DNA of 32,436 nt from an uncultured Ruminococcus sp. (lineage in GTDB: Bacteria > Bacillota > Clostridia > Oscillospirales > Acutalibacteraceae), in assembly GCA_902774325.1 (NCBI GenBank), contig CACYIC010000015.1:1-32436 (forward strand). The letters are read 5' to 3'. The notes beneath the pieces are model-generated. The model was not told where the DNA came from. It saw only the letters and a list, made by a program, of their open reading frames with translations, and did not search any database. The translations under genes were made by a program, and so were the position numbers. This document shows, one piece after another, positions 7,125-28,119 of the stretch (position 1 is its first letter; every line of letters begins with the position of its first letter).

Positions 7125-8498
7125 CTACTGCTTTCCGTAGAATTCGTCGAGCATATCGTCCTTGATACGCTTGAGCTCGCTGCGGGGAAGGATATGCAGA
7201 AGCCTCCAGCCGATATCGAGGGTCTCCTCGATCGAGCGGTTGGCGTCATAGCCCTGAGAAACGTATTCTCTCTCGAACGCCTCAGCAAATTCGGCGTATT
7301 TTTTATCCATTTCGGTCAGAGCCGCCTCGCCGAGAATGACCATCAGCTCTCTGGCGTCCTTGCCTCGAGCGTAAGCCGCGAAGAGCTGGTTCATCGTGGC
7401 GGCGTGATCCTTTCTCGTCCTGCCGGGGCCTATGCCCTTGTCCTTGAGTCGCGACAGCGAGGGAAGCACGTCGATAGGCGGCGTCACGCCCTTGCGGTAC
7501 AGCTCGCGCGAGAGGATGATCTGACCCTCGGTGATGTAGCCGGTGAGGTCGGGGATCGGGTGGGTCTTGTCGTCCTCGGGCATGGTGAGGATCGGGATAA
7601 GCGTGATCGAGCCCTCCTTGCCGCGAAGTCTGCCCGCTCTCTCGTAAAGAGTAGCGAGGTCGGTGTACATATATCCGGGATAGCCGCGTCTGCCGGGGAC
7701 TTCCTTTCTTGCTGCGGAGACCTCGCGCAGGGCGTCGGCGTAGTTTGTGATATCGGTCATGATGACCAGAACGTGCATGCCAAGATCGAACGCGAGATAT
7801 TCGGCGGCGGTGAGCGCCATTTTGGGGGTCGCGATACGCTCGATAGCGGGGTCGTTCGCGAGGTTCACGAACATTACGGTACGGTCGATAGCTCCGGTTT
7901 CCTTGAAGGACTGGACAAAGTAGTCCGATTCCTCAAAGGTGATGCCCATCGCGGCGAATACGACGGCGAACTGCTCGTTTTTGCCGCGCACGGTCGCCTG
8001 ACGCGCGATCTGGGCGGCAAGGCGGGAATGGGGAAGACCCGAGGCTGAGAATATCGGCAGCTTCTGACCTCTTACAAGTGTGTTGAGTCCGTCGATAGCG
8101 GAGATGCCCGTCTGGATAAACTCCTGGGGATAGTTCCTAGCGGCGGGGTTCATGGGCGTGCCGTTGACGTCGAGGCGCTTTTCGGGGATCAGCGCGGGAC
8201 CGCCGTCGATGGGATTTCCCAGGCCGTCAAATACGCGCGAGAGCATATCGGGAGATACGGGAAGCTCCATCGAGCGTCCCAGAAAGCGAACCTTGCTGTC
8301 GGCGAGGTTGATTCCCGCGGCGGATTCAAAGAGCTGCACAAGGGCGTTTGAGCCGTTGACCTCAAGCACCTTGCAGCGGCGGGTCTCGCCGTTGGGCAGC
8401 TCGATCTCGCCGAGCTCGTCGTATTTAACGTCCTCAACGTCGCTGATCATCATCAGAGGTCCCGCGACCTCGCGGATCGTGCGGTATTCCTTTGGCAT
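7125..8498 (-). CDS. ntpB: V-type ATPase subunit B (regulatory head subunit)
   Basis: Non-catalytic nucleotide-binding-type subunit alternating with A in the hexameric V1 head. At 457 residues it matches bacterial NtpB. As expected it lacks a P-loop: the corresponding segment reads [18 protein letters not shown] (about 150-167). Other family blocks seen are [20 protein letters not shown] and [21 protein letters not shown] 8498 overlaps the ntpA stop (TGATG) and AAAGGAG lies just upstream, inside ntpA, so translation is coupled to subunit A at matching stoichiometry. No disruption seen. Confidence 0.97.
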
Positions 8499-22478: not shown

Positions 22479-24023
22479 TCAGTCAAGCGAGTTTTTCTGG
22501 GACGCGGGAACCTTCTTTTCGTAGCAGGCGAAGGCGTCCTCAACAAGCTGCTTTTGGGGCTTGGGAGTGAGCAGGCTCACTACCGGAACGATGATCAAGC
22601 CGGCGAGCATGGTGAACGCGCCGCAGTTGATCGGGGACTGGAGGATGGGCGGGAAGATGTTGCGGAAGAAGAGGTTGAGCAGCATTAAGCCCGCGCCGAA
22701 GATGAAGCTTGCCCAGCAGGCTGCCTTTGTGGTCTTTTTCCAGTACAGACCGTAGAGGAAGGGAGCGAGGAACGCGCCCGCGAGAGCTCCCCAGGAAACG
22801 CCCATGAGCTGAGCAATGAATTTAACGCTCTCGTTCTTGCTGCCGTACTGATAGATGGCGATGAGCGCCGAGATCGCGATAAATACCACGATGAAGATCC
22901 TGATGAATACGACCTGCTTTTTGTCGTCCATCTTCTTGACGATATTGCCCTTGATGAGGTCGATGGTAAGGGTCGAGCTGGATGCGATAACAAGCGAGGA
23001 GAGGGTGGACATCGAAGCCGAGAGCACCAGGATAACCACAACCGCTATGAGCAGCGAGGGCAGGTTGGAGAGCATCGTGGGGATGATCGCGTCAAAGCCG
23101 TCCTTGGCTACGTCGACGTTAAAGAGTCTGCCGAAGCCGCCGAGGAAGTAGCAGCCGCCCGCGACTATGATCGCGAAGCCGGTCGAGATGATCGTGCCCT
23201 TCTTGATGTCGCGCTCGTGCTTGATCGCGTAGAACTTCTGAACCATCTGAGGAAGTCCCCAGGTGCCCAGAGAGGTCAGGATGACAACTCCGAGAAGGTT
23301 GAGAGGATCGGGTCCGAAGAAGGAATTGAATACGCCGGGAGTCGCGGACACCTCGGGATCGGAAACGCTCGCGAGCTTGTTGAGCGCCTCCATAAAGCCG
23401 CCCTGGGTGTTGAGCACCGCGACGATGACGGCGACGATTCCTATGAGCATGATGATGCCCTGGATGAAGTCGTTGATAGCCGTCGCCATGTAGCCGCCGG
23501 CGATGACGTAGATTCCCGTGAGCACGGACATCGCGACGATACACCAGACGTAGGGGATTCCGAACGCCATATTGAACAGGCGCGAGAGTCCGTTGTAGAG
23601 CGATGCGGTGTAGGGAATGAGGAAGATGAATACGATGATCGAGGCTCCGATCTTGAGCGCCTTGCTGTCAAAGCGCTTGCCGAAGAATTCGGGCATCGTC
23701 GCCGAATTGAGGTGCTGGGTCATGATCCTCGTGCGTCTGCCGAGCACCGCCCAGGCGAGGAAGGAGCCGACCAGAGCGTTTCCTATACCTATCCAGGTAG
23801 AGGCGATACCGTATTTCCAGCCGAACTGTCCCGCGTAGCCGATGAAGATTACCGCCGAGAAGTAGCTGGTGCCGTAGGCGAAAGCCGTGAGCCAGGGACC
23901 GACGCTTCTGCCGCCGAGCACAAAGCCGTTTACGTCTGTCGCGTTCTTGCGGCAGTAGATGCCGACGCCGACCATGACTCCGAAGAAGAGCACCAGCATG
24001 ATGATTTTGATTGCCATATCCAT
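22479..24023 (-). CDS. Sodium:solute symporter (SSS family)
   Basis: Membrane carrier of 514 residues that uses the Na+ gradient to import a small organic solute. About 13 hydrophobic helices are visible. Family features are the N-terminal GGRSVGPWLTAFAYGTSYFS (about 37-56), the GIYVIAGGYMATAINDFIQG block (about 170-189) and the Na2-site helix SASMSTLSSLVIASSS (about 335-350) with its paired Ser/Thr. Substrate (proline, pantothenate, other) cannot be told from these motifs. ATG 24023 follows AGGGGG. The 127 bases upstream hold hairpins (AGCCCG/CGGGCT, about 24091-24119) but no promoter, so the gene is probably cotranscribed with the ligase gene and therefore under the same T-box. Confidence 0.9.
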   Translation of the reverse strand: MDMAIKIIMLVLFFGVMVGVGIYCRKNATDVNGFVLGGRSVGPWLTAFAYGTSYFSAVIFIGYAGQFGWKYGIASTWIGIGNALVGSFLAWAVLGRRTRIMTQHLNSATMPEFFGKRFDSKALKIGASIIVFIFLIPYTASLYNGLSRLFNMAFGIPYVWCIVAMSVLTGIYVIAGGYMATAINDFIQGIIMLIGIVAVIVAVLNTQGGFMEALNKLASVSDPEVSATPGVFNSFFGPDPLNLLGVVILTSLGTWGLPQMVQKFYAIKHERDIKKGTIISTGFAIIVAGGCYFLGGFGRLFNVDVAKDGFDAIIPTMLSNLPSLLIAVVVILVLSASMSTLSSLVIASSSTLTIDLIKGNIVKKMDDKKQVVFIRIFIVVFIAISALIAIYQYGSKNESVKFIAQLMGVSWGALAGAFLAPFLYGLYWKKTTKAACWASFIFGAGLMLLNLFFRNIFPPILQSPINCGAFTMLAGLIIVPVVSLLTPKPQKQLVEDAFACYEKKVPASQKNSLD

Positions 24024-24150: not shown

Positions 24151-25800
24151 TTAGAGATTTTTTATATCTATCTCGTTTTGCTGGGCTACTACGCTTTCGC
24201 CGCAGTAGATCTTGCGCAAAACGGGTTTTTCGATTTTTCCGGTCGGATTTCTGGGGACCTTAGCGAAGATCACCCTGCGGGGACGCTTGTAGCGCGGAAG
24301 ATCGAGGCAGAATTGGTTGACCTCTTCCTCGGAGAGCGTCATGCCCTCCTTGACCTCGATGATCGCCGCCGCGATCTCGCCCAGACGGGGATCGGGAAGT
24401 CCGATAACGGCGACGTCCTTGATGGCGTTGTTGCTCCTGAGAAAATCCTCGATCTGAACCGGATAGAGGTTTTCGCCGCCGGTGATTATTACGTCCTTCT
24501 TGCGGTCTACCAGATAGATGAAGCCGTCCCTGTCGCGCTCAGCCATATCTCCGGTGTAGAGCCAGCCCTCGCTGTCGAGCACTTCCTCGGTCGCTTTTGC
24601 GTCCTTGTAGTAGCACTTCATGACTCCGGGACCCTTTACCGCGAGCTCGCCTACGCCGTCGGTCACCTCGTTCCTGTTCTCGTCTACGATCTTGACCTCC
24701 CAGCCGTAGCCGGCAACGCCTATCGCGCCGACCTTTTCGGTGTTCTCGACTCCGAGGTGGACGCAGCCGGGACCGATGCTCTCGCTGAGTCCGTAGTTGG
24801 TGTCGTACTGATGGTGCGGGAATATCGCTTTCCAGCGCTTTATCAGAGTGGGAGGCACGGGCTGAGCGCCGATATGCATCAGCCTCCACTGAGAAAGCTC
24901 GAAATTATTGAGGTCTATCCTGCCGCTGTCGATGGCGTCGAGGATATCCTGAGCCCACGGAACCAGCAGCCAGACTATCGTGCAGCGCTCCTCGCTGACG
25001 GTGCGGATTATCCATTCGGGGCTGACGCCGCGCAGCAGCACAGCCTTGCTGCCCGAATAAAGACTTCCGAACCAGTGCATTTTCGCGCCCGTATGATAGA
25101 GCGGCGGGATGCAGAGGAACACGTCGTCGCGGGTCTGACCGTGGTGCGCCTGCTCGACCTTTGCCGAATGCATGAGCGCGCGGTGAGCGTGGAGGATAGC
25201 CTTGGGAAAGCCCGTTGTGCCCGAGGAGAAGTAGATGGCGCCGTTGTCGTCGTCGGTGATGTAAACGCTCGGAGCCTGCGAGGAGCAGTAGGAAATCATC
25301 TCCTCGTAGCTGTCTGCGAAAACGGGGCACTCGGTTCCGACATAGAAGTAGTTTTTGACGCGGGGGAGACGGTCGCAGATCTCCTCGACTCTTCCGATGA
25401 ATTCGGGGCCGAATACAAGGAAGTCGGAGTCCGATTTCTCAACGCAGTATTTGATCTCCTCCGCGGTATAGCGGAAGTTGAGGGGAACGGCGACTCCGCC
25501 CGCCTTGAGGATACCGAAGTAGATCGGCAGCCAGTCGAGGCAGTTCATGAGGAGGATAGCCACCTTTTCGCCCTTCTTGAGTCCGCGCGAGAGCAGGAGG
25601 TTAGCGAAGCGGTTGGCTTTTACGTCAAACTCGCCCCAGGTGAGCTGCTTCCTGAAGGCGCCGCCTCGGGCTGACTCGATAAGCGAATACTCGCGCCAGG
25701 TTACGCGAGGCACGTTCTGTACCTCGGGGTTGATCTCCACCAGCGCGATGTCGTTTTTGAAATAAGTCGCGTTTCGTGTTAATAACTCGGTGATCGGCAT
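24151..25800 (-). CDS. Acyl-CoA synthetase-like AMP-forming ligase under T-box control
   Basis: Class I adenylate-forming enzyme: activates a carboxylic acid with ATP to an acyl-adenylate and then usually forms the CoA thioester. The 549-residue product has the P-loop-like AMP signature IYFSSGTTGFPKAI (about 186-199), NYGLSES (about 319-325), the hinge block YTGDMAERDRDGFIYLVDRK (about 420-439) and the catalytic lysine near PTGKIEKPVLRK (about 516-527). These are complete. The overall look is that of medium/long-chain or aryl acyl-CoA ligases, not of an aminoacyl-tRNA synthetase. ATG 25800 follows AAAGGA by eight bases, downstream of a T-box terminator; longer in-frame codons run into the leader. 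The acid substrate is unknown; the T-box suggests a link to an amino acid. Confidence 0.9.
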   Translation of the reverse strand: MPITELLTRNATYFKNDIALVEINPEVQNVPRVTWREYSLIESARGGAFRKQLTWGEFDVKANRFANLLLSRGLKKGEKVAILLMNCLDWLPIYFGILKAGGVAVPLNFRYTAEEIKYCVEKSDSDFLVFGPEFIGRVEEICDRLPRVKNYFYVGTECPVFADSYEEMISYCSSQAPSVYITDDDNGAIYFSSGTTGFPKAILHAHRALMHSAKVEQAHHGQTRDDVFLCIPPLYHTGAKMHWFGSLYSGSKAVLLRGVSPEWIIRTVSEERCTIVWLLVPWAQDILDAIDSGRIDLNNFELSQWRLMHIGAQPVPPTLIKRWKAIFPHHQYDTNYGLSESIGPGCVHLGVENTEKVGAIGVAGYGWEVKIVDENRNEVTDGVGELAVKGPGVMKCYYKDAKATEEVLDSEGWLYTGDMAERDRDGFIYLVDRKKDVIITGGENLYPVQIEDFLRSNNAIKDVAVIGLPDPRLGEIAAAIIEVKEGMTLSEEEVNQFCLDLPRYKRPRRVIFAKVPRNPTGKIEKPVLRKIYCGESVVAQQNEIDIKNL

Positions 25801-25840
25801 AAGACAAATCCTTTCCAAAATCAATAATAATTGCAATAAA

Positions 25841-26113
25841 GAAAAATAAAAGCCCGACAGCCAAATTGACCGTCGGGGCGAATGATCGCGGTACCACCCG
25901 AATTTACTGCGCTGAACGCAGCCTCTTGCGCGATATAACGGTCGCACCCGTCGCGGTCTACAGGATCAGGGGATCTTTCGGCGCGCGGCTCTCGGGATGT
26001 ATTCAGCTCGGTTCGATCCGTCGCCTCGCATCAAACGGCGACTCTCTGAGGGTATCTTCCCGCCTTACTTCTTCCCGGTCGCTGCCTTTGAGATAAGGTT
26101 CTCTTTATTTCAC
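25841..26113 (-). promoter_or_regulatory. T-box riboswitch leader, probable tyrosine specifier
   Basis: Minus-strand leader with the T-box core GGGTGGTACCGCG (25899-25887) and a following intrinsic terminator (stem CCCGAC/GTCGGG, 25879-25852, then TTTTATTTTT). Stem I is recognisable by AGAGAGTC and a distal hairpin GTCGCC/GGCGAC with apical TGATGCGA (about 26046-26017), and by the lower helix CGGGA/TCCCG. One base before that lower helix the specifier-loop strand reads GAA-UAC-A, placing UAC (Tyr) at 26001-25999. The acceptor-binding UGGU would pair with a tRNA having discriminator A, as tRNA-Tyr does. Uncharged tRNA would allow readthrough into the ligase and symporter genes. T-box identity is certain; the specifier is a reading by hand. 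Confidence 0.95.
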
Positions 26114-26119
26114 TTTAAT

Positions 26120-26148
26120 ACTATCGCACTTTAAAGCGTGTTTGTCAA
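26120..26148 (-). promoter_or_regulatory. Promoter of the T-box operon
   Basis: On the minus strand: TTGACA (26148-26143), 17 bases, GATAGT (26125-26120), with TG one base before the -10. A shifted -10 (TAGTAT) would give 19 bases. Confidence 0.7.
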
Positions 26149-26224
26149 GAGCAAACAATAAATATATAAAAACTTTGTGAATATTGCACGGATATGATAC
26201 AACGAATTTGGTTTAAATCACTAA

Positions 26225-26254
26225 AGCGCTTTGAAACGGCTGCCCGTCAGCGCT
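26225..26254. repeat. Two-step inverted repeat between divergent promoters
   Basis: Outer arms AGCGCT (26225-26230) and AGCGCT (26249-26254), inner arms ACGG/CCGT around CTGC. It lies between the T-box promoter and the nhaC promoter and belongs to neither. The remainder of 26150-26368 is AT-rich and shows nothing else I can name. Confidence 0.45.
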
Positions 26255-26397: not shown

Positions 26398-26448
26398 GTG
26401 TCTGTTGTTTGTCGAAAAACGACGAAAAAAATGAAAGGGAAGAACAAT

Positions 26449-28119
26449 ATGAAAAAACATCTGAAGAATATTATTTTCATCGCTCTTATCGCGGTATACA
26501 TAATATTCTGCTTCGTTCAGGCGCCTATCACTCAGGCAGTCACCGGCAATGCCGACGACGGGACTCTCATGGGTTCGATGTGGTCGCTGCTGCCGCCTAT
26601 CGTGGCTATCGGTCTGGCGCTCATCACCAAGGAGGTTTATTCCTCTCTCTTCGCGGGAATCGTAACGGGCGGCGTGCTCTTTGCAATTTCGACCGCGAAC
26701 AGCTTTATGAACGGCTTTGAAGTCACCTTCAAATCCATTGTAAACGAAGGCATTATCGCGAATATCGCTGACAGCTATAACGTCGGCATCCTCGTGTTCC
26801 TCGTTGTGCTCGGCGCTATCGTCGTGCTCATGAACAAGGCGGGCGGCAGCCGCGCCTACGGCGAATGGGCGGCGACCCATATCAAGACCCGCGCCGGCGC
26901 CTGCATCGCGACCTTCATCCTCGGCGTTCTTATCTTTGTAGACGACTATTTCAACTGCCTCACCGTCGGTTCGGTAATGCGTCCCGTCACGGACAAGCAC
27001 AAGGTTTCGCGCTCAAAGCTCGCTTACCTCATCGACGCGACCGCGGCTCCCGTCTGCATCATCGCCCCGATCTCATCCTGGGCGGCGGCGGTCAGCGGAA
27101 CCGTTGAGGGCGTAAACGGAATCCAGCTCTTTATCAGCACGATCCCCTACAACCTCTACGCTCTGCTCACCCTCATAATGGTCGTGTTCATCGCTCTCGC
27201 TCATGAGGATTTCGGTCCCATGAAGCTGCACGAGGACAACGCCGCAAAGGGCGACCTCTTCACCACCAGAAACAGCGTTTACGAGAAGGACGACGAGCCC
27301 TCCCACAGCAAGGGCAGGGTTTATGACCTCATCATCCCCGTTGTCATTCTTATCTTCCTCTGCGTTGTCGGAATGCTCTATTCCGGCGGCTTCTTCGGCG
27401 GAGAAAACAATCTTGATTTCATCAACGCCTTCGCGAACTGCGACGCGTCCGTCGGTCTCGCGCTCGGTTCGATCGCCGCGCTGATAGTTGATATCATCTA
27501 CTTCATTTGCCGCGGCGTATTGAAATTCACCGAGTGCATGAGCTCCATCGTTTCGGGCTTCAAGCAGATGGTTCCCGCCATCCTCATCCTTGTTTTCGCA
27601 TGGACCCTCAAGACCATGACCGGTCTGCTCGGCGCGAGCGCCTTTGTAAGCGCTCTTGTTGAGAACGCGACCGCGATCCAGATCCTTCTGCCGCTCATCC
27701 TCTTTGTCGTCGCCGTCGGTCTTTCTTTCGCGACCGGCACCTCCTGGGGAACCTTCGGTATCCTCATTCCCATCGTCACGGGAGTATTTTCCTCAAGCCT
27801 TGCCAACGCGGGCGAGAACGGTATCCCCTCGATGGTCATCATCTGCATCTCCGCCTGCCTCGCCGGCGCTGTTTGCGGCGACCACTGCTCGCCTATTTCG
27901 GATACCACCATCATGGCGTCGACCGGCGCTCAGTGCGACCACGTGAACCACGTTTCGACCCAGCTGCCCTACGCGCTGACGGTCGCGGGCGTTTCGGCGG
28001 TCGGCTACCTGATCGCGGGCTTTGTTCAGAACGTCTTTGTGGTGCTCGGCGTTTCCATCGCCCTGCTCGTAGGCGTGCTGCTGCTTATCAAGCTGTTAAA
28101 TAATAAGAAAAAGGCGTAA
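26449..28119 (+). CDS. NhaC-family Na+/H+ antiporter-like transporter
   Basis: Integral membrane carrier of 556 residues and about 12 helices. The family-defining segment GDHCSPISDTTIMASTGAQC (about 480-499) is intact, as is the mid-membrane FVDDYFNCLTVGSVMRPVTD (about 162-181), which holds paired acidic residues likely to bind the ion. Members either exchange Na+ for H+ or, in some cases, couple Na+ or H+ to an organic solute; the exact substrate is not readable. At about 550 residues it is of the longer subclass. ATG 26449 follows AAAGGGA; upstream in-frame codons overlap the promoter transcript start. It diverges from a tyrosine-type T-box operon but has no T-box of its own, and a strong terminator ends it. 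Confidence 0.92.
   Translation: MKKHLKNIIFIALIAVYIIFCFVQAPITQAVTGNADDGTLMGSMWSLLPPIVAIGLALITKEVYSSLFAGIVTGGVLFAISTANSFMNGFEVTFKSIVNEGIIANIADSYNVGILVFLVVLGAIVVLMNKAGGSRAYGEWAATHIKTRAGACIATFILGVLIFVDDYFNCLTVGSVMRPVTDKHKVSRSKLAYLIDATAAPVCIIAPISSWAAAVSGTVEGVNGIQLFISTIPYNLYALLTLIMVVFIALAHEDFGPMKLHEDNAAKGDLFTTRNSVYEKDDEPSHSKGRVYDLIIPVVILIFLCVVGMLYSGGFFGGENNLDFINAFANCDASVGLALGSIAALIVDIIYFICRGVLKFTECMSSIVSGFKQMVPAILILVFAWTLKTMTGLLGASAFVSALVENATAIQILLPLILFVVAVGLSFATGTSWGTFGILIPIVTGVFSSSLANAGENGIPSMVIICISACLAGAVCGDHCSPISDTTIMASTGAQCDHVNHVSTQLPYALTVAGVSAVGYLIAGFVQNVFVVLGVSIALLVGVLLLIKLLNNKKKA

Follow-up and report, generated by a model that had tools for sequence, protein, structure and literature searches.

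A tyrosine T-box leader before an AMP-forming CoA ligase in gut Clostridia: a candidate switch for arylacetate salvage

T-box switches turn on the genes behind them when the charged cognate tRNA is scarce, and the question raised by the locus described here is what an acyl-CoA ligase might do for a cell under the control of a switch that appears to read tRNA-Tyr. The locus lies in the window, that is, the whole analysed stretch of 32,436 nucleotides from an uncultured Ruminococcus sp., whose genome assembly comprises 2.1 Mb in 74 contigs and is 91% complete. A sequence-only reading of the window had proposed a tyrosine-type T-box before a complete ligase and had guessed that the enzyme could handle an aromatic acid related to tyrosine, such as a hydroxyphenyl acid, either to spare it or to convert it back, in an unusual starvation circuit.

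The leader, its genes and the host tRNA

The features of the locus, all on the minus strand, are as follows.

26207..26225 (-), conserved upstream element TTTAGTGATTTAAACCAAA, 77 nt before the -35 hexamer
26120..26148 (-), sigma-70-like promoter TTGACA-17-GATAGT with TG before the second hexamer, from a consensus scan only
25871..26091 (-), T-box leader from Stem I to the antiterminator, RF00230 match
25999..26001 (-), specifier codon UAC (Tyr) in the loop GAA-UAC-A, from the covariance alignment
25893..25896 (-), T-box bulge UGGU, complementary to the tRNA 3' end ACCA, from alignment and sequence
25873..25902 (-), antiterminator, from homology and sequence, its 3' half overlapping the 5' half of the terminator
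25853..25877 (-), intrinsic terminator stem-loop with a T-rich tail to about 25843, from pattern scan and fold
24151..25800 (-), AMP-forming acyl-CoA ligase of 549 aa (PF00501 and PF13193), proposed 4-hydroxyphenylacetate-CoA ligase
22479..24023 (-), sodium:solute symporter (SSS; PF00474), proposed to take up the acid

The identity of the switch as a T-box is firm at the sequence level. The Rfam covariance search matches RF00230 at 26091-25871 (minus strand) over the full length of the model (1-219) with 109.4 bits against a gathering threshold of 93 (E 1.4e-23); this is the sole Rfam match at or above gathering threshold in the whole window, and the alignment places UAC as its specifier. Together with the related leaders described below, the match rules out a chance or misread T-box. 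In an alignment of 16 leaders, 42 of the 52 predicted consensus pairs show compensatory changes, and the sequence AATACA is invariant (16/16). The tRNA-Tyr of the same genome has the anticodon GUA and the 3' end A-CCA and can therefore pair with both UAC and UGGU, as is required of a T-box ligand. The reading of specifiers was checked on four further T-boxes of this genome, two of them above gathering threshold, which precede genes that we take to be pheS, leuA, a tryptophan synthase beta-like gene and thrS; the alignment gives the specifiers UUC, CUC and UGG, and in the unaligned thrS leader ACC was read by eye.

The terminator stem (25877-25853) is followed by CTTTTATTTT, and a 45-nt stretch bearing the hairpin folds with -18.3 kcal/mol (z -5.14); the pattern scan itself, with one terminator-like site against 0.9 expected in shuffles, is weak alone. 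The antiterminator stretch taken by itself adopts the expected shape at -10.8 kcal/mol, no better than shuffles (z -0.16), so that its placement is by homology only. Since 25902-25873 and 25877-25853 share bases, antiterminator and terminator are mutually exclusive, as in other T-boxes. Thus, the core, Stem I and terminator that had been recognized from the letters alone are all in place.

The promoter assignment comes from a scan that gave two promoter-like sites against 0.8 expected in shuffles and is likewise weak alone; TTGACAAA is found upstream of the ligase in at least 13 of 17 close loci, among the rows listed. The element TTTAGTGATTTAAACCAAA has a single match in its own genome at up to two mismatches (none for the reversed-pattern controls) and recurs with 0-3 mismatches 76 nt before TTGACAAA in loci L009, L010, L088 and L094, which span T-box-bearing and T-box-less leaders. 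It lacks a match in 2 of the 17 close loci, the figure among the other loci being 1 of 89. It is possibly a site for a regulator.

Behind the leader, the gene does encode an intact AMP-forming ligase, with PF00501 at E 1.2e-70 and PF13193 at E 2.4e-11, but with its start moved: the listed 598-aa ORF begins at a GTG within the leader, and the likely start is the ATG at 25800, just preceded by GGAAAGGA, which gives 549 aa. Among the best 25 of its 107 NCBIfam matches, the ligase reaches the cut-off of no family. The top score of the 107 matches is 394.5 bits for NF004837, and the scores remain below the cut-off of 646.3 for PaaK (TIGR02155), so the enzyme is not a PaaK. Among enzymes of solved structure, those closest to it in sequence are fatty-acyl, feruloyl, malonyl and 4-coumarate ligases, with scores of no more than 244 bits; calling the substrate from the nearest structure was dropped as uninformative. 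The symporter gene starts 127 nt 3' of the ligase. No promoter- or terminator-like site was found between the two genes in the pattern scan, which makes their co-transcription plausible on sequence grounds.

An NhaC-type antiporter gene (PF03553) lies divergently at 26398-28119 (+), and members of its cluster also occur close to the ligase gene of L047, L053 and L079. As Wels 2008 (PMC2494555) describes an NhaC-family transporter gene preceded by a Tyr T-box, this recurrence near ligases suggests that the antiporter may carry tyrosine.

T-box leaders at related ligase loci

The same leader-ligase pair occurs in related genomes and is not a peculiarity of the window. Two overlapping samples were considered. 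The locus sample consists of 106 loci, namely the best 80 of the first genome scan (which yielded at least 80) and 26 from 25 of 59 relatives, one of these 26 being the window's own copy. The order sample covers 197 genomes with 69 ligase genes, of which 60 upstream regions were examined; nine genes (the window's own, partial or at contig edges) were omitted. One leader is shared by both samples, as L021 and L233.

In the locus sample, the 450 nt preceding the ligase contain a GGTGGTA core in 19 of the 105 other loci; in three further loci (L016, L019 and L021), the core precedes a symporter-ligase pair. No core was seen within this distance of the ligase in L063, L036 and L040, the loci of cultured R. 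albus or R. flavefaciens strains. RF00230 exceeds gathering threshold in 14 of 17 and in 5 of 8 sources tested in two batches; L035, L045 and L051 have the core but do not reach the Rfam threshold, and no Rfam T-box match was obtained for L014, L039 and L024. In the order sample, 21 of the 60 regions carry a T-box at E of 0.001 or better, 19 of them above gathering threshold, and 39 carry none. In all 21 cases the T-box is oriented toward the ligase: 16 stand ahead of it without an intervening reference gene, and 5 precede symporter plus ligase. The idea that the window's T-box is the leftover of a deleted, unrelated gene is thereby ruled out, since in other genomes the leader is again followed by this ligase, either directly or with the symporter ahead of it. 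The 43 distinct leaders (of 44) before orthologous ligase operons specify UAC (Tyr) in 41 cases and UUC (Phe) in two (L261 and L263), so the assignment to tRNA-Tyr is sustained by the alignment, by the host tRNA and by the relatives.

Several observations lie beside these counts. Core variants (GGTGGA/C/G) occur in L031, L042, L070, L081 and L109, and cores precede other genes in L010, L012, L029, L057 and L085. In L217 (genome G045), a core at 7886 on the minus strand precedes, by about 1.8 kb, the symporter gene of an SSS-PaaK2-IorA-IorB operon. In L154 (G010), a Tyr T-box and its ligase converge on genes that we presume to belong to the shikimate pathway. Titles among the loci of the first scan include Ruminococcus flavefaciens, R. 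albus and Lachnospiraceae, as well as several bins of Lentisphaeria/Victivallales. Eight ligases 71-73% identical to that of the window (L023, L030, L031, L034, L046, L062, L073 and L074) come from bins labelled Lentisphaerae, Lentisphaeria, Victivallales, Victivallaceae, Verrucomicrobia or Kiritimatiellae, which suggests either inter-phylum transfer or mis-binned contigs.

The control itself is patchily distributed. On a FastTree tree of 97 ligases, with a T-box in 21 of the 94 scored rows, the T-box state must have changed 13 times or more; the pairing is therefore not one simply inherited copy. A T-box is lacking at 15 loci whose ligases are 84-90% identical to that of the window (14 distinct upstream regions, with the symporter behind each ligase), and together with the 39 T-box-less regions of the order sample this indicates that T-box control is easily lost or gained. 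By eye, these close relatives (L006-L009, L011 and L087-L096) show a promoter and, right behind it, a short terminator-like hairpin; in L088, only a damaged 3' part of a T-box (the antiterminator) remains. Such losses might mean that the window's own T-box is a decaying relic whose regulation is gone. This is very unlikely, since the 109.4-bit match is full length, specifier and bulge are intact, the terminator is strong and the matching tRNA is present.

Linkage to iorAB and exchange with PaaK-type ligases

Which pathway the ligase belongs to is suggested by its neighbours. Clustering was possible for 100 loci (6 of the 106 were dropped because no ligase ORF was called), and as many loci are short, the counts are lower bounds: the symporter recurs in at least 34, a 577-aa protein in at least 22 and a 194-aa protein in at least 14, followed by a 438-aa protein (at least 6) and a 140-aa protein (at least 5). 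The symporter cluster adjoins the ligase in 33 of the 100 loci, and an iorA cluster lies within two genes of it in 22, directly behind it in 19. Representatives of the four recurrent proteins other than the symporter are IorA, with 723 bits for TIGR03336 (cut-off 651), IorB, with 290 bits for NF005325 (cut-off 230), a PaaK-like ligase, with 529 bits for TIGR02155, below the cut-off of 646, and a protein termed ACT-like here, which reaches the cut-off of no family.

The window genome has its own iorA at C7:35331-37058, that is on contig 7 and thus apart from the T-box ligase, with iorB, a PaaK-like gene and an ACT-like gene behind it; no T-box was found at this locus. A second IorA of the genome (L145, contig 5) is 41% identical, with a downstream PaaK-like gene 45% identical to that of L019. 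A pattern scan covering 143 loci found no T-box core directly before iorA in the 30 iorA loci L112-L141, and the lone core among them stands behind iorB and before a PaaK gene (L120).

Across the 197 genomes, the ligase is found in 69, iorA in 119 and both in 66. Thus, iorA accompanies 66 of the 69 ligase genomes as against 53 of the 128 others (Fisher p 1.5e-15), the searches having scored only the best candidates per genome, and a second, PaaK-type ligase, PaaK2, is present in 43 of the 53 iorA genomes lacking the ligase and in none of the 66 having both (p 4e-23), under a wider definition (41 best rows or adjacency) that is post hoc, set after the list had been seen; because the genomes are related, both p values are too small. 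The three ligase genomes with no iorA match are G064, G068 and G141, and in G141 the first 204 residues of iorA adjoin the ligase at a contig end. In 37 genomes, all of them without the ligase, PaaK2 is the gene immediately preceding iorA. Among the fetched loci without the ligase, the order SSS-PaaK2-IorA-IorB is found in 10 of 13, with PaaK1 and ACT behind in 7. A hand count in the 59-genome sample, which shares some genomes with the larger one, gave PaaK2 in 13 of 15 ligase-less iorA genomes and in 0 of 25 ligase genomes. As both kinds occur within families f3, f17, f20, f21 and f26, this looks like repeated exchange of enzymes in one pathway slot.

It could be argued that the ligase acts on some other acid (a hydroxycinnamate, a phenylpropionate, or a lipid or secondary-metabolite precursor) and that the ior linkage is incidental, in keeping with its structural neighbours and with the absence of a family above cut-off among its best 25 of 107 matches. 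The co-occurrence with iorA, the exchange with PaaK2 and the adjacency to iorAB speak against this, and we regard it as unlikely.

A second set of T-boxes bears on the choice between arylacetates. At least six T-boxes stand immediately upstream of PaaK1 among the matches listed for the 59 genomes, and the specifier is UUC (Phe) in all six examined; in G024, a Phe T-box lies within the operon, between ligase-iorA-iorB and PaaK1. UUC before PaaK1 as against UAC before the ligase suggests that the two ligases are split by amino acid. From the codon, gene order and exchange we infer, as the favoured assignment, that PaaK1 acts on phenylacetate and the T-box ligase on 4-hydroxyphenylacetate, both feeding an IOR that works in the carboxylating direction. 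One of the two UUC exceptions among the ligase leaders, in G221, heads LIG-IorA-IorB-PaaK1-ACT, and as this operon includes PaaK1, a Phe switch is not odd there.

Alternatively, the ligase might be broad on arylacetates (phenylacetate, indoleacetate and 4-hydroxyphenylacetate), the Tyr T-box sampling just one of the amino acids served. The two ligase leaders with UUC are compatible with such breadth, as is the difficile ligase described in PMC13285125, which is active on PA, HPA and IA; but the prevalence of UAC among the distinct ligase leaders, the uniform UUC before PaaK1 and the retention of both the T-box ligase and the PaaK-like ligase in the window genome and in others weigh against it, and this version seems doubtful, though worth keeping in mind.

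A proposed tyrosine salvage route and its relation to known systems

At the sequence level, the T-box class, the Tyr specifier, the tRNA match, the ligase and symporter families, and the linkage and co-occurrence with iorAB are directly seen. It is probable that the tRNA-Tyr T-box drives a starvation-induced salvage in which 4-hydroxyphenylacetate is turned, through its CoA ester and 4-hydroxyphenylpyruvate, into tyrosine. Uncharged tRNA-Tyr would accumulate and pair with the UAC of Stem I and the UGGU of the antiterminator, and transcription would read through into the ligase gene and probably the symporter gene too. The symporter would import 4-hydroxyphenylacetate, a tyrosine-fermentation product of neighbouring bacteria, and the ligase would convert it to the CoA ester at the expense of ATP. 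IorAB, whose genes lie elsewhere in the window genome and next to the ligase in other genomes, would carboxylate the ester with reduced ferredoxin to 4-hydroxyphenylpyruvate, from which an aminotransferase would yield tyrosine. The hydroxyphenyl-acid guess of the sequence-only reading is thus favoured, by way of gene order, co-occurrence, PaaK exchange and the Phe T-boxes. As for the unusual starvation circuit, the unusual part is the route; given the iorAB link, the logic of control is that of an ordinary T-box for amino acid biosynthesis.

The carboxylating direction we infer from starvation control combined with an AMP-forming ligase. IOR is reversible, and the oxidative direction is possible in principle. 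In that case, tyrosine would be fermented to 4-hydroxyphenylacetate with a gain of reduced ferredoxin, much as the IOR of B. thetaiotaomicron has been implicated in the conversion of phenylalanine to phenylacetate (cited in PMC13285125). However, by established T-box logic the switch comes on when charged tRNA-Tyr is scarce, and AMP-forming ligases typically favour CoA-ester synthesis (PMC13285125), so that a fermentative role is given even less credence than the relic.

Salvage in the synthetic direction is not needed for tyrosine in the window genome, where tyrA was found. The 33 genomes counted as lacking tyrA (24 with no match at E 0.001 and nine with weak matches) include 16 with the ligase, against 53 of the remaining 164 (p 0.11, no significant association). 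At E 0.001, tyrA is without a match in 13 of the genomes that carry the ligase, including G054 (99% complete) and G106 (100%). The suggestion that salvage replaces a lost tyrA is therefore unsupported.

On a wider scale, the data make it reasonably probable, with somewhat less confidence than for the tyrosine route itself, that gut Clostridia possess an undescribed regulon in which codon-matched T-boxes govern arylacetate salvage, UAC before a new family of 4-hydroxyphenylacetate-CoA ligases and UUC before the PaaK-like phenylacetate ligase, with IOR running toward synthesis. If so, the codon in the RNA would report the substrate of each ligase and also the direction in which the reversible IOR works. 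4-Hydroxyphenylacetate is a precursor of p-cresol, and this precursor would be recycled into tyrosine, providing a possible bacterial sink for the acid. A testable substrate would also be given to a widespread ligase family (69 of 197 genomes of the order) with no curated name among the best 25 of 107 matches. Whether gut anaerobes burn or build aromatic amino acids through IOR is unsettled, and building has been argued for Bacteroides from ligase chemistry (PMC13285125); a tyrosine-starvation switch before the partner ligase of IOR would be independent evidence for building.

The pathway is known in outline: an AMP-forming ligase whose gene adjoins ior in Bacteroides was found by assay to act as an arylacetate-CoA ligase, and a biosynthetic role is suggested for it (PMC13285125), and phenylalanine can be made from phenylacetate according to PMC7356843, which cites rumen work. 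No literature pairing 'T-box' with 'phenylacetate-CoA ligase' was found. Neither PMC2494555 nor PMC7778990 uses the terms CoA or ferredoxin in its main text, and 'CoA ligase' is absent from that of PMC3766115. Neither the tRNA-sensing control nor the assignment of the ligase family was found in print, and an earlier mention is possible in PMC2271356, PMC2650889, the Methanococcus aryl-acid paper or supplementary tables.

Compared with known systems, the leader shares with other RF00230 T-boxes its architecture, specifier logic and terminator/antiterminator switch, and on the proposed reading it likewise governs a gene that works toward the amino acid being sensed. The known examples in PMC2494555 include tyrS, tyrosine biosynthesis genes and NhaC-type transporters for Tyr, and phenylalanine-4-hydroxylase, whereas here the regulated gene encodes an AMP-forming CoA ligase; it is the link to iorAB that makes this an instance of ordinary T-box logic on an unusual route. 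With PaaK (TIGR02155), the ligase has in common the operon slot (that of PaaK2) and the proposed chemistry, the two being distant adenylate-forming relatives that both match NF004837. With the IOR-based synthesis of aromatic amino acids from aryl acids, proposed for methanogens and represented by the Bacteroides ligase-ior pair (PMC13285125), it has in common the combination of an AMP-forming ligase and indolepyruvate:ferredoxin oxidoreductase. Unlike those systems, the one described here is found in Clostridia, employs a non-PaaK ligase and is under tRNA-sensing control, which indicates both the direction and the amino acid.
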